A stretch of DNA of 64,000 bases from Pseudanabaena sp. PCC 7367. Lineage in GTDB: Bacteria > Cyanobacteriota > Cyanobacteriia > Pseudanabaenales > Pseudanabaenaceae. The translations under genes and the position numbers were made by a program. The stretch is taken from assembly GCF_000317065.1 (NCBI RefSeq), contig NC_019701.1:3730001-3794000 (forward strand), given 5' to 3'. Position 1 is the stretch's first letter; every line of letters starts with the position of its first letter. Of the stretch, positions 55,701 to 60,034 are shown in pieces. Below the pieces are notes generated by a model that saw nothing but the letters and a program-made list of their open reading frames with translations, was not told where the DNA came from and searched no databases.

Positions 55701-56050
55701 AGGAGGCGATCGCCATTGATCCCAATTTTGCTCAGATTTATTTCAATCTGGGGGTATTACTGTTGCCCAGTGAAAAGCAATTGGCCGATGCGATCGATTT
55801 TTTGCGGGCGGCGATCGACCTGAAGCCAGAATGGGCAGAGGCACATCAAAAATTGGGCGAAGGGTTATATGACCTCAGTCAACAAACCAACTCGCCAAAA
55901 TACTTAGCAGAGGCGATCGCTAGCTTCAAAACTGCAACCAGACTCAAACCCAGCCTCACAGTGGCTCACCAGGCATTAGAACTGGCAACTTCTACCCAAC
56001 AGGCATTGCCAAGAATGGCGCCACGAATAGATCCTGATGATCCTGATTAG
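52781..56050 (+). CDS. TPR protein with central glycosyltransferase domain
   Basis: 1089 residues from ATG 52781; a TTG at 52751 would add 10. Residues about 20-350 hold some eight tetratricopeptide repeats (LDEAIASYEQALAANPEDLSAL type). A glycosyltransferase-like domain follows (about 375-690) with VSGEQGVGDEVLFGSM, IDFVLPMGSM, GISWHSTNRKKYPA and VDLVISISNTAVHMAGALGKPLWLLLP. A second TPR block (about 735-1080) closes the protein. Such fusions resemble O-linked GlcNAc-transferase-like or GT9-like enzymes. The substrate is unknown. Confidence 0.88.
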   Translation: MDIQGTPPSEPQLLTLQDLNLRMQLSELPVVAQDHMQQQRWPEAILCYHKLLEVLAQFEAFGQAQAISENSNSADVDRPDKNEVPPQEILSNACCGLGVALSKLGQLDEAIASYEQALAANPEDLSALYLLGVAYSRQNQWDSAIASYQKVLNLQSAHIPARMNLGVAFLRSSNLKQAVREFEQLVTIAPNSSDAHCNLGIAHHRLGELETAAASLETAIALEPSHMQALYNRGKVAEDQDQPEAAIGYYRQALSIEPDDIDTCCSLAFVLDRQNQSTEAIALYQHAISLNPHEADALSNLGASLVHQRNPQQAIDYFERALSVQKNHLAANLNLAHACFMLGNFARGFEYYKWRWFMINQPKRDLPAPLWDGSPLAGKTVLVSGEQGVGDEVLFGSMIPDVIAASDRCWIECQPRLVPLFARSFPEATIIPKEGQEALTIEKPENIDFVLPMGSMGQWLRPTIESFTDRNGAFMQPDAAKVQACRDRYLKLASSQEPENLKEVSQESSSDQPVNVQVSDQTKPNRNLIVGISWHSTNRKKYPAPLADWLPILNLPGITFVDLQYGDWADELAQMQDRYDVDIYHDPNIDQIASIDDFAAQVAAVDLVISISNTAVHMAGALGKPLWLLLPYVPEPWYWLLEGTTTPWYASASLFRQRQWGDWDGVFDRVANALSELVALYQGHPGHLGKDLEDSAELDLEQNLEQIKAIAEQAELATNQEATKPGQKGNPANLAQRYLQRAQTSLQRGRFTEAIDNCQKLIALELEQTEFQAEMAKAYTIWGRALQQMGKPIDATKPYEQAIALQPDLVFAHWFLGQSYDQQGLPELALSQYIEALTIEPETFTAESHFLLGNSLVERHRYDQALEFYQRAIELKPGYLDAHRNRIKALALQGNLAAAVQAQTDLVAADPDLLSAKECNELGMHCIQAEKLAEAIHCFENAIQIDPENADAHFNLGNTFAQRNQVRDAIICYQEAIAIDPNFAQIYFNLGVLLLPSEKQLADAIDFLRAAIDLKPEWAEAHQKLGEGLYDLSQQTNSPKYLAEAIASFKTATRLKPSLTVAHQALELATSTQQALPRMAPRIDPDDPD

Positions 56051-56117: not shown

Positions 56118-56546
56118 CTATTGGCAAACGGTGGTGGTGCTTTGCGATGTAACTACATTGCTACCGTCAGCACTTTCTGAACGGTAAACCTTGCTTTCAG
56201 TGCGGCAGTCTTGATCGCCTAGTTGATATTCATCAACATAATCATCGGCATATTCATCATAATCTTCATAGTCTTCGTAATCTTCGTATTCATAGTCATC
56301 CGTATTGATGCCTGAATCGTTAGAATCACTCCTGAATCGATCGCGGCGACGACGTAGGCGATCGGCTTGGCTTGGCTCTGGCGCACTCTCAATATAGATT
56401 TCGCCATCATCATCAATAATTGTGGTAGTGCCATCCACACTAATATTCACATCATCAGCCTTGGCGATCGCATTAGGCAGGATTATGATTGTACATAGGG
56501 CAATTAAAGCCATACCCGCCCAGCGGAAATGGTGTTGCTTTGGCAT
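56118..56546 (-). CDS. Secreted acidic low-complexity protein
   Basis: 142 residues from ATG 56546, 7 nt after GAGGT; a longer reading to 56597 has no such signal. A signal peptide (about 1-33, IALCTIIILPNAIAKA) is followed by VNISVDGTTTIIDDDGEIYIES, a basic patch RLRRRRDR, then repeated Glu-Asp-Tyr (EYEDYEDYEDYDEYADDY) and a C-terminal part with two cysteines (DCRTESK, TTTVCQ). It is exported, possibly calcium- or metal-binding. No family was recognised. The gene next to it is a second secreted protein. Confidence 0.6.
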   Translation of the reverse strand: MPKQHHFRWAGMALIALCTIIILPNAIAKADDVNISVDGTTTIIDDDGEIYIESAPEPSQADRLRRRRDRFRSDSNDSGINTDDYEYEDYEDYEDYDEYADDYVDEYQLGDQDCRTESKVYRSESADGSNVVTSQSTTTVCQ

Positions 56547-56692
56547 TTTGAATACCTCACTTAAGTCAAATTTAGAGGTTGATTGATTCTCGATCATGGA
56601 GGAAGCTACCCTAGAAGCCTTACGCTCTAAGGCAGCATCTCTGAGCTAAGCCCACAAAGTCACTATCTGACTAAGCTGGACTAAGCTGGGGC

Positions 56693-57097
56693 TTATTTTT
56701 TCTTGTCATGGCCATACTTACGGCCGCGACCAGGATTGCGGCGATCGCTACGGTTCTGGACATTGGTCTGGGTAGCATTTTGTTCAACATAGTTGTCGTT
56801 ACCATAGATATCAACTCCCTGGTTGACTTCCTGGTAATTGTCCTGGTTCGGGGCATTTTTATCATACTTGTCCCGCTTGCCAGGTTTACCAGGCTTGTTG
56901 CCACGGCGGTTGGTGCGATCGTTCTGAACATTGATTTGCTCGGTCTCCTGGAAAACCGTGTTCCCATTCCCGTCAATGGTAGTGGTCTGATTAATAATCT
57001 GGGTATTAATCTTGTCCGCACGAGCAGGCAAGGCAGTTGCGCCAACAGTACCAAAAGTTAGCAATGAAACCAAGGCAACTAAATAGGTTCTTTTCAC
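56693..57097 (-). CDS. Secreted protein with curlin-like repeats
   Basis: 134 residues, ATG start. Signal peptide about 1-27 (ALPARA end). Two imperfect units follow: INQTTTIDGNGNTVFQETEQINVQN and VNQGVDIYGNDNYVEQNATQTNVQN (given by key residues NQ, GN-N-V, Q and NVQN), joined by a GNKPGKPGKRDKYDKN linker; the C-terminus is Arg/Lys-rich. The spaced Gln/Asn/Gly pattern resembles curlin repeats of functional amyloid, though the count is low. Secretion is likely; amyloid behaviour is an inference. It lies 147 bp upstream of the acidic protein. Confidence 0.6.
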   Translation of the reverse strand: MKRTYLVALVSLLTFGTVGATALPARADKINTQIINQTTTIDGNGNTVFQETEQINVQNDRTNRRGNKPGKPGKRDKYDKNAPNQDNYQEVNQGVDIYGNDNYVEQNATQTNVQNRSDRRNPGRGRKYGHDKKK

Positions 57098-57691
57098 GAT
57101 ATTTACTCCATCTATAGTCTTCAGTACAAATTGATAAATTGTGCTGAGCAGTATTTATTCACACATGTGGCAAAATTTCAGTGAGCGATCCTAAATTAAA
57201 AGCTCGCCGCTTTGTTGCCGTGATTCAGTTGTAATAAATCTGAGTAGAATGCTTGAATGCGTCCCCAGTTCAGTAAACTCAACCAAGATGCTGCGATCGT
57301 TTGAGTAGATCGCGTTTTGCTTGGCAAATTCCTTTACCTATCAATTTATTCAAGCTATTTCATAGCTGTTGATTATTTGTATGCAGCACACATACAATTA
57401 CCTGATGTTTGCCTGAGTTAGATTTGATTATTTGGCATTCAACAGAGAATATGTTTGAGAATGAATGCGAAATAATTATCAGGCAAAAATACTTACGACA
57501 TATCCTCTATGGGTGCATTGACGGTACGGTTTTTACGAATGTTCCCGATCGGCTCAAAAAATTTTTTATTGGCTCATCAATTGCCAGGTAAGAATTTCAG
57601 CGATTTTAGGGCTGATCAGGCAAAAAGTTTCTTGAAAAAGTTTTTGAAAATACGATTTAGCAATTAATTTCTTCGCTGGCGATCGCTGCCA
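57098..57691. other. Spacer, nothing certain
   Basis: 594 bp. A weak 60-codon TTG-started ORF at 57409-57591 (FENECEIIIRQKYLRHILYG) lacks a ribosome binding site and is not called. Confidence 0.4.
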
Positions 57692-58486
57692 CTAATCTAA
57701 GCTGGCCACATCCCTTTGTCGCTTGGCCTCATAGAGAATTAGCGCCGCCGAAACCGCTAAATTGAGTGATTCCACCCCATTTTCAAGTGGGATACTCACC
57801 GCCAAATCGGCAACCTGGGCTAACTCCGCCGACAGGCCATTGCCCTCGTTGCCTAGCAAAATCAAACAGGGTTGGCTAAAATCCGCTTGCCAATAGGTCA
57901 GCTCAGCATCAGCATTGGTGGCAATCACCTTAATGCCCTGTTTTTTGTAGGTTTCTATAGTCTGGACTAGATCACCTTGCGATCGCAAATTAGCCCGAAA
58001 CCATTGTCCCGCCGAGGCTCTGATTACCTTGGGGCTGGTTAAATCAACACTATCCTGACTGACCCAGATTTCATCAATGCCAGCGGCTACGGCAGTGCGG
58101 ATAATTGCGCCCAGGTTACCGGGGTCTTGAATGGTTTCTAGCACCAAGCCGATCGAGTTGATTCCTGAATCTCTGGCTGAATCAGGCAGGGGCAAGGTGG
58201 CAATCACACCGTCGGGGTTCATGGTGGTGGCGATCGCTTTGATCACAGCCTCGCTAACCGGTTCAAGCTGCTCTGCTCGCTCTAAGACCTCACCATAGAG
58301 AACTGGGTTTTTTTGTTGCCAAACCTCGGTATAGCAAACAGTAGCACAGGGGAAATTAGTGGCGATCGCCTCGCTGAGGGCATGGGTGCCTTCGATCAAA
58401 AACAAACCCTGCTCGCGTCGGGCTTTGGTACTTTTCCCCAGTTGCCGCAGGGCTTTTACCAAAGGATTGCGAGTGCTGGTAATCAT
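57692..58486 (-). CDS. TrmH/SpoU-family RNA 2'-O-methyltransferase
   Basis: 264 residues, ATG start. The N-terminal substrate-binding domain opens with STRNPLVKALRQLGKSTKARREQGLFLIEG. The SPOUT knot domain has the three motifs: VLETIQDPGNLGAIIRTAVAAG, LILLGNEGNGLS and VSIPLENGVESLNLAVSAALILYE. It methylates a ribose in rRNA or tRNA, with SAM. The exact target site cannot be told from the sequence. The gene is adjacent to tRNA-Leu, 19 bp away. Confidence 0.92.
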   Translation of the reverse strand: MITSTRNPLVKALRQLGKSTKARREQGLFLIEGTHALSEAIATNFPCATVCYTEVWQQKNPVLYGEVLERAEQLEPVSEAVIKAIATTMNPDGVIATLPLPDSARDSGINSIGLVLETIQDPGNLGAIIRTAVAAGIDEIWVSQDSVDLTSPKVIRASAGQWFRANLRSQGDLVQTIETYKKQGIKVIATNADAELTYWQADFSQPCLILLGNEGNGLSAELAQVADLAVSIPLENGVESLNLAVSAALILYEAKRQRDVASLD

Positions 58487-58504: not shown

Positions 58505-58586
58505 TGCGGAACCCGGGACTTGAACCCGGAAGGTTTTATCCACATGATTCTGAGTCATGCGCGTCTACCAATTCCGCCAGTTCCGC
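58505..58586 (-). tRNA. tRNA-Leu (CAG)
   Basis: 82 nt with the long variable arm of a class II tRNA. The acceptor GCGGAAC pairs with GTTCCGC, anticodon stem CATGA/TCATG encloses CTCAGAA (anticodon CAG, reads CTG), and the T stem CCGGG/CCCGG encloses TTCAAGT. The discriminator is A. The CCA tail is not encoded. Confidence 0.97.
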
Positions 58587-59057: not shown

Positions 59058-59639
59058 TTATTGATGAATAATTGTTTTAGCTGCTTTAGCTTTTTGTTTC
59101 TGGCGATAGGCACTGATGCCGAAGATACTACCTAGGGCAATTAAACCCAATCCAGACTCAAACTCAAAGGGAACCGCTGTCACCGTAGGATTTAGTGAAT
59201 CATCGATGCGACGAAATCCAAAAATCGGCGGAGAGCTAAGTTCAATAATGCCTGCCGAAATGTTAACTGTCCCACCGGCATCAGTTAAGCCACTCCCCCC
59301 AAAAGTCAGTTGCAAAAAGAAGCCACTAACAGGACTGGTGGTAAGAATATTCTCATCGCCTGACTGAAAGCCTGTATAGGTGATTGAGGCGCCAGGATAG
59401 CTATTGCCATTCTGAAATGGAGCGACAGAGCCTGCAGTGGAGGTGATATTGATGTTTGAGTAGGTACCGTCTGGGCCTGCAGATGCAACGTAGTCAAACG
59501 TTCCTGAAATGGTACCGCCGCCATCCACAGCATCATAGGCAGCGTTATTTATTGTCCAGGTCAATGCCTCAGCAGCAGATGGATTGAAGCCGCCGATCGC
59601 CAGGGTGATCACAGCAGTAGCGGTACTAAATCTAAGCAT
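59058..59639 (-). CDS. PEP-CTERM-like exported protein
   Basis: 193 residues from ATG 59639, 10 nt after GGAG; a longer reading reaches 59687. Signal peptide about 1-26 (ending AEA). The mature part is Gly/Ser/Thr-rich beta-type (AYDAVDGGGTISGTFDYVAS, NSYPGASITYTGFQ). The C-terminus reads AVPFEFESGLGLIALGSIFGISAYRQKQKAKA, the cyanobacterial PEP-CTERM variant: sorting motif PFEF, a membrane helix, then a basic tail. It is predicted to be processed by an exosortase and placed at the cell surface. Confidence 0.82.
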   Translation of the reverse strand: MLRFSTATAVITLAIGGFNPSAAEALTWTINNAAYDAVDGGGTISGTFDYVASAGPDGTYSNINITSTAGSVAPFQNGNSYPGASITYTGFQSGDENILTTSPVSGFFLQLTFGGSGLTDAGGTVNISAGIIELSSPPIFGFRRIDDSLNPTVTAVPFEFESGLGLIALGSIFGISAYRQKQKAKAAKTIIHQ

Positions 59640-60034
59640 TTTATTGTTACTCCACAAAAAAATCCGCCAGATAGAATCTTCTATCAAATTCCCAGCTTAC
59701 TGGAACGAAGCTAGAGCCGTAAATTGGGCATATCGCCTATATCTTTTTGAGTATGCGGCGGATGGGGCTGAGGCAAAATCAGGTAAAGACTTTTTAACTT
59801 ATGTTGAACTTATGTTGCGATCGCGTTGTTAATTAAATGTAAAACGTAGCGATCGCCTGAATTGATCGTAAAGAAATCAAAGCATAGTGTGGGTTTTGGG
59901 CTAGGCTGCGATCGAATCGCTTTGCTTTTAGTAGTTGACTGAGTAGTTGGATTAAGAAACCCGATCGGTAAAGGTATATTTTCTCAACTACTGGGTATAA
60001 TGAATCTACACTATCTACATAGGATTACCGATAT

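Follow-up and report, generated by a model that had tools for sequence, protein, structure and literature searches.

The question raised by this locus is whether two small neighbouring genes of Pseudanabaena sp. PCC 7367 encode parts of an extracellular fibre, and how closely such a fibre would resemble curli. The window, meaning the whole analysed stretch of 64,000 nucleotides (RefSeq assembly GCF_000317065.1, contig NC_019701.1, positions 3,730,001 to 3,794,000 of the forward strand), carries both genes on its minus strand. A sequence-only reading had described them as an adjacent pair of secreted proteins, one acidic with a Glu-Asp-Tyr run and two cysteines (here A), the other with two Gln/Asn/Gly units and a basic tail (here B). 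The coordinates bear this out, with the signal peptides of both products recognised by eye, and the following features were assigned:

56118..56546, minus strand: gene A, encoding a secreted acidic protein of 142 aa with a C-terminal Cys pair and the end TTTVCQ; ATG start at 56546, GAGG at 56555-56558
56124..56207, minus strand: C-terminal segment of A, Cys114 to Cys141, the two conserved cysteines of the A family
56226..56300, minus strand: acidic Glu/Asp/Tyr run of A, residues 83-107
56693..57097, minus strand: gene B; GTG start at 57097, stop ending at 56693, GGAG at 57106-57109
56768..56833, minus strand: repeat unit 2 of B, residues 89-110, QEVNQGVDIYGNDNYVEQNATQ; predicted strands 86-98 and 103-116
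56936..57001, minus strand: repeat unit 1 of B, residues 33-54, QIINQTTTIDGNGNTVFQETEQ; predicted strands 30-42 and 47-60
57017..57097, minus strand: signal peptide of B, residues 1-27, end LPARA; cleavage site placed by eye

Gene A likely starts at ATG 56546, which has GAGG 8 bases upstream, rather than at the upstream ATG 56597. In the A family alignment (18 rows) C141 is invariant and C114 is conserved in at least 90%, and the C-terminal segment ends mostly in VCQ or VCR; one further cysteine of window A (numbering of the 142-aa form) lies within the signal peptide. The middle of A is variable among relatives, and the Glu/Asp/Tyr run is the window's own version of it. Gene B has GGAG 8 bases 5' of its GTG start and encodes a protein of 134 aa, composed of a signal peptide, two curlin-like 22-residue units, a basic linker and a basic tail.

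The two genes are separated by 146 bases. A stretch of about 600 bases lies 5' of B before a SpoU-type rRNA methyltransferase gene (57692-58486), while a TPR gene convergent with A has its end at 56050 on the 3' side, which leaves the pair on its own. A scan for regulatory sites was uninformative (5 promoter-like sites vs 4.2 expected, 2 terminator-like sites vs 1.6 expected). Upstream of the methyltransferase gene, a tRNA-Leu (cag) gene was found at 58505-58586 (minus strand), and the gene at 59058-59687 (minus strand) codes for a secreted protein whose PFE-CTERM sorting signal scores 42.1 bits on NF050011 (cut-off 24).

Both units of B, the first beginning at residue 33 and the second at residue 89, match the pattern Q-x3-Q-x5-G-x2-N-x3-Q-x3-Q exactly. 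Of 200,000 shuffled mature B sequences, 21 had one unit or more and 0 had two, the pattern itself being derived from the B family alignment, of which window B is one row. In the alignment of 49 B proteins, G43 never varies, and conservation is at least 90% for Q33, Q37, N46, Q50, Q54, Q89, Q93, G99, N102 and Q106. Positions 7, 9 and 16 of the unit, which were not used for picking, are mostly A, I or V in 92 units selected for their G-x-x-N and for three or more of the four Q, a selection that makes G and N constant and Q frequent by construction. If the unit folds as a beta-arch, its inward residues would be Q, small, Q, aliphatic, aliphatic, turn, N, aliphatic, Q, small, Q. The linker between the two window units is 34 residues long, and many relatives of B likewise have two units only.

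By profile search, relatives of B were detected in 53 of 388 cyanobacterial genomes at E<=0.01 and in 40 at E<=1e-6 (strong B genomes), and by pairwise search in 36 at E<=0.01, each count including the window's own genome. The latter matches the B HMM at E=5.5e-33, window B being row 1 of the alignment behind it. Window A as query reached only 6 of 388 genomes because its middle is variable; its pairwise matches in G232 (E=4.5e-6) and G088 (E=0.0014) are independent of any alignment. In both of these same-family genomes, and in distant cyanobacteria, B stands next to A on the same strand, so the conserved adjacency proposed earlier as a check was found. Within the window's own family, B occurs in G000, G088 and G232 and in none of at least 20 other genomes, i.e. 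its distribution is patchy.

The earlier description of B as curlin-like stands for the layout (22-residue units, G-x-x-N turns, Q/N content, predicted strand-turn-strand) and falls for the curlin profile and the minimal motif. The Curlin_rpt family PF07012 did not match window B at E<=5, was not among the best 25 of 26 families for 36 B proteins at E<=1, and was found in none of four longer B relatives and L103, which argues against strict curlin membership. In a genome search PF07012 gave no match at B loci and 0 of 9 genomes above the cut-off, with 3 of 14 controls responding, E. coli among them, and one of these three above the cut-off. The curli minimal repeat is X6QXGX2NX10 in the available parts of one survey (PMC3521004), and QX10Q is named as a curli repeat feature in those of another (PMC12822426); neither occurs in window B. 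The minimal repeat is present in 10 of 55 B proteins, six of them longer and with 3-4 copies each (E. coli CsgA and CsgB, as controls, have 4 and 5).

The curli channel protein CsgG (PF03783) was not found in the window's own genome at E<=0.001, with E. coli among the positive controls. It was found in 118 of 388 genomes, and in 6 of the 40 strong B genomes vs about 12 expected by chance. Profile comparison gave 0.9% for B as CsgA, 11% and 0.6% for the longer B relatives as CsgA and CsgB, and 1.3% for D, a further secreted family introduced below, as CsgC, and these identities were rejected. B appears curlin-like in design and is not shown to be a curlin.

An AlphaFold2 model of window B (49 sequences) places strands at residues 30-42, 47-60, 86-98 and 103-116, i.e. 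in two strand-turn-strand units. Block mean pLDDT was 59-77 over the units, with a mean of 58.5 overall and a pTM of 0.40, and with this modest confidence the units are predicted to have the curli layout. Foldseek found no match to the window B model in PDB chains. A longer relative in the same gene position, L109:6306-6803, carries the curli minimal motif three times and was modelled with three strand-turn-strand layers (pLDDT 81-83 around the turns, best of five models). By E-value, its first Foldseek match among 350,542 PDB chains was the E. coli CsgA fibril 8enq, a weak one (E=0.033, probability 0.08, TM 0.10), and Pseudomonas FapC (9nqd) was fifth, also weak. Profile comparison of the longer-relative family with B gave 96.9% with the signal peptide and 73% and 51% (two directions) without it, both units staying in register. 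The five models had mean pLDDT of 62.3, 48.4, 44.0, 39.0 and 38.3, the other four backing the best one poorly. The weaker match without signal peptide and the four poor models lower the confidence in a fibre, and in the wider amyloid claim made below, and raise that in a solenoid, a rival also weighed below.

Two further claims of the sequence-only reading concerned the relation of A to B. The opening phrases VDGTTTIID and TTTIDGNGN are both present, and common ancestry had been suggested from them. The similarity of A and B (E=0.016 by search, 92% by profile) spans the signal peptide and the first residues, and the profile match fell to 0.8% once the signal peptides were cut off; it thus comes mainly from the signal peptide, and the suggested kinship is unsupported beyond it. 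A common ancestry of A, B and C, the third secreted protein of the cluster described below, was rejected in the same way: A-B reached 92% and B-C 93% over the signal peptide, and A-C 75% over 29 mature columns near a cysteine, and each was below 1% after removal and realignment, the removal being a crude cut. Opposite charge, from which association of the two products had been proposed, holds in the window (A -22, B +6) and not as a family trait, since only 4 of 18 A proteins are net negative (window -22, G232 -6, L023 -6, L031 -2). It is a trait of a few lineages.

In other cyanobacteria the pair is part of a larger cluster. The usual order is one or more B genes, then A, then C, often with two further secreted families, D and E, next; the full cluster has 1-3 copies of B, and a second B gene adjoining the first is common. 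C is a secreted protein with two cysteines whose mature part begins QCVVADV-like. The D family (22 of 34 loci) is by eye likely a beta-sandwich, and E (8 of 34) has one B-like unit and, by eye, a likely C-terminal coiled coil. In 34 loci selected for B, 31 of 32 multi-gene clusters lie on a single strand, and A was found beside B by profiles in 22. Where A, B and C are all present (n=20), A stands immediately before C in 20 of 20 and B immediately before A in 19 of 20, the exception being a plasmid cut at the record start. These order counts serve as a description of the cluster rather than as independent evidence, because the loci were chosen for B hits and the A, C, D and E profiles come partly from the same loci; some locus edges are contig ends. 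Left out of the alignments were near-duplicates, L007 (antisense) and L016 (an odd protein), both first sorted to B, and the antisense row L031:2322-2549, first sorted to C.

C was detected in 43 of 388 genomes at E<=0.01. At E<=1e-6, a threshold that drops 13 of the 53 B genomes and 1 of the 43 C genomes, B is present in 40, C in 42 and both in 36 of 388 (hypergeometric P about 6e-40, genome kinship ignored). D was detected in 14 of 20 B genomes checked, 7 of which had given the D profile no row; the match in G250 lies far from the cluster of that genome. Named carriers with C (28 loci, 8 of them examined for neighbours) include species of Nodosilinea, Leptolyngbya, Nostoc, Fortiea, Petrachloros and others. 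On plasmid pP880101 of Rippkaea orientalis PCC 8801 every cluster gene is annotated 'hypothetical protein'. The copy on this plasmid (49853-50884 and 142-2736) spans the record start: three tandem B genes, all under a single protein accession, are on one side, and A, C and D plus a long B-like gene on the other. Purifying selection acts on the cluster genes in g87, a related genus to which named Nodosilinea belong: the median dN/dS is 0.09 and 0.12 for the B genes of two types (from 8 loci per type), 0.21 for A (7 loci) and 0.11 for C (5 loci). Window B compared with G232 gave no finite dS and hence no dN/dS value.

The window holds a B with two units and, directly after it on the same strand, an A with the Cys pair (window A being row 1 of the alignment used for this assignment), and no C follows A. 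Profile searches at E<=10 found neither C nor D in the window's own genome, the D profile being one that finds 7 genomes without a row in it. G232 likewise has B-A without an adjoining C, and in addition a second locus, where B occurs together with a C-like protein and D. The window pair is either a minimal or a reduced form of the cluster.

None of A, B, C or D has a convincing name in Pfam or NCBIfam (one D protein scanned in NCBIfam), nor does E among two proteins scanned in Pfam and one in NCBIfam; the matches obtained were weak, mostly of single members and mutually dissimilar. DUF3060 (PF11259) was considered for B and rejected, its match to the second unit (15.4 bits, E=0.015) lying below the gathering cut-off of 23.1 bits. 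It matched 4 of 36 B proteins weakly, window B among them (best E=0.0095). Searching the PDB by sequence with the B profile gave nothing below E=0.27. Among D proteins (A4 family, e.g. L097:10836-11264), Glyco_hydro_2_N was matched by 2 of 22 (best E=0.0032), and a CBM-like family and Glucodextran_B by one each, a faint sugar-binding theme by which D may tie the cluster product to polysaccharide.

Literature searches on amyloids, curli, curlin and secreted proteins of cyanobacteria gave no paper about these families among the matches listed, as far as the available portions of text go. A 2025 survey of curli and Fap operons draws its examples, in its accessible parts, from Pseudomonadota, Desulfobacterota, Nitrospirota, Bacillota and Bacteroidota, and 'cyano' is absent from its text (PMC12822426). 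A 2012 curli survey has 'cyanobacteria' once, as a metagenome sample name (PMC3521004), and the accessible parts of the two surveys name no cyanobacterial host.

Our preferred reading, to which we give slightly less than an even chance, is that B and A are, in this genome, the central part of an extracellular fibre or matrix system that works independently of CsgG. B would be exported by the Sec route via its signal peptide and would cross the outer membrane by a route other than CsgG. Each 22-residue unit would form a beta-arch, consisting of a strand, the G-x-x-N turn and a second strand, with alternate Q, small or aliphatic, N and Q residues pointing inward. Stacking of units within and between B molecules would then give a curli-like fibre or a matrix layer outside the cell. 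The basic linker and tail would remain outside the core, where they could bind the acidic sheath or acidic partners. A, with its C-terminal Cys pair, may serve as an accessory, i.e. as nucleator, cap or anchor of the fibre. In the full form of the system, B (1-3 copies)-A-C, often then D and E, the window would keep B and A. Of all this, the secretion signals (read from sequence), the repeat pattern, the conservation, the gene order and the selection in g87 are observed, and the beta-arch is a model prediction.

A rival, which we regard as unlikely, is that B is a soluble or cell-wall-bound beta-solenoid (polysaccharide, ion or ice binding) that does not polymerise and whose Q/N ladder only stabilises a small fold. 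VIA-align placed globular SufB/SufD beta-helices (Z 5.6 to 4.7) above CsgA (Z 4.1, rmsd 7.3 over 70 residues) for the model of L109:6306-6803, and several ice-binding beta-helices appear in the Foldseek list of that relative at E 0.58 or worse. From the design, two separate 22-residue units joined by a 34-residue linker nevertheless seem too short for a stable lone solenoid, and the many relatives with two units only, along with the common second adjoining B gene, would fit it poorly.

A further possibility is that the window pair is what remains of a full B-A-C-D cluster in decay and no longer has a function. That C and D were not detected in this genome, while 36 of the 40 strong B genomes have C, would agree with decay, as would the restriction of same-family B to three genomes, at least 20 others having none. 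Against decay, both genes have intact reading frames, signal peptides and ribosome sites, B has kept its two exact units and A its Cys pair; moreover, G232 shows the same arrangement of B-A beside its second locus. We consider a remnant improbable. Least probable of all, and in our judgement very unlikely, is a role of A and B as small secreted proteins in signalling, defence or antimicrobial action, with the repeats being incidental. Their small size, signal peptides, variable linkers and tails and tandem copies are what such proteins could show, but it is the repeat units that are conserved and the linkers that vary, no immunity-like gene is among the neighbours recurring in at least 4 loci, and no convincing Pfam or NCBIfam match points to such a role.

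The proposed fibre system can be set beside three known ones. The imperfect repeats of CsgA are about 22 residues long. Curli CsgA and CsgB and the B proteins are alike as small Sec-exported proteins with units of about 22 residues, an x-G-x-x-N turn between two strands (predicted ones in B) and alternating Q/N and aliphatic residues, and also in gene order, with two subunit-type genes in a row and then a small accessory (csgB, csgA, csgC). Window B differs from curli in having no Q two places before G and no QX10Q, its Q residues standing at unit positions 1, 5, 18 and 22, and in having two units only with a long basic linker, no PF07012 match and no CsgG found in its own genome; for the accessories A, C, D and E no convincing match to a named family was obtained. 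Pseudomonas FapC and FapB resemble B in that their imperfect repeats are rich in Asn/Gln and are separated by linkers of at least about 30 residues, whereas the units of FapC are longer, three per protein, and of Greek-key form, according to the available parts of PMC12392863. EbfG1-4 of Synechococcus elongatus, compared by description from the available parts of PMC9981879, are like the cluster proteins small, secreted and encoded together in one operon, and three were amyloid-like in a reporter assay; their amyloid hot spot is a short A-hydrophobic-N-I-small motif and not a 22-residue unit. DUF3060 (PF11259) bears a resemblance to the second unit of B at a score below its cut-off.

Because the families are unnamed in Pfam and NCBIfam, the literature is silent among the matches listed and the EbfG amyloids, as far as the available text goes, are of another form, we take the cluster, if it is read as a fibre or matrix system, as a new variation on a known kind. 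The wider claim, that B-A-C(-D-E) would be a cyanobacterial functional-amyloid system with its own Q ladder (positions 1, 5, 18 and 22 around G-x-x-N), its own accessories and no CsgG, a third bacterial beta-arch fibre layout beside curli and Fap and a component of the matrix that makes up sheaths or mats in filamentous cyanobacteria, we hold to be doubtful. The protein fibres of cyanobacterial sheaths and mats are, to our knowledge, poorly known, and a conserved cluster of five secreted families without names that has curli-like units and occurs in culture-collection strains (Nodosilinea nodulosa PCC 7104, Rippkaea orientalis PCC 8801) offers a direct candidate. The comparison also suggests that curli-like systems may be better recognised by repeat layout than by a CsgG gene or PF07012.

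Some observations were made at the edges of the clusters. At the cluster end, L091:12010-13116 and L110:1660-2736 each encode a protein (368 and 358 aa, respectively) that carries several B-like units and has a VPEPS tail resembling a PEP-CTERM signal (PF07589 17.7 bits for L091, below the cut-off of 20.7; no NCBIfam match for L110); if these tails are real, they would mean a curli-like protein anchored by exosortase. In 4 of 34 loci, which come from several families, a caspase-type gene lies at a distance of about 0.15 to 5.4 kb from the cluster (L110:2889-5276, L101:13439-15553, L105:15754-18339, L109:13322-15766), the one in L110 being annotated as caspase domain-containing (NF047832, 120 bits, below the cut-off of 140). 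All three longer-B loci have a gene, protein-kinase-like by eye, divergent from the first B (L105:10876-12285, L109:4025-5257, L111:10934-12235). On contig G352:C376 of Filamentous cyanobacterium CCP3 (L145, L146), the B and C genes occur twice in mirror orientation with equal scores, which may reflect an inverted duplication or an assembly artefact.
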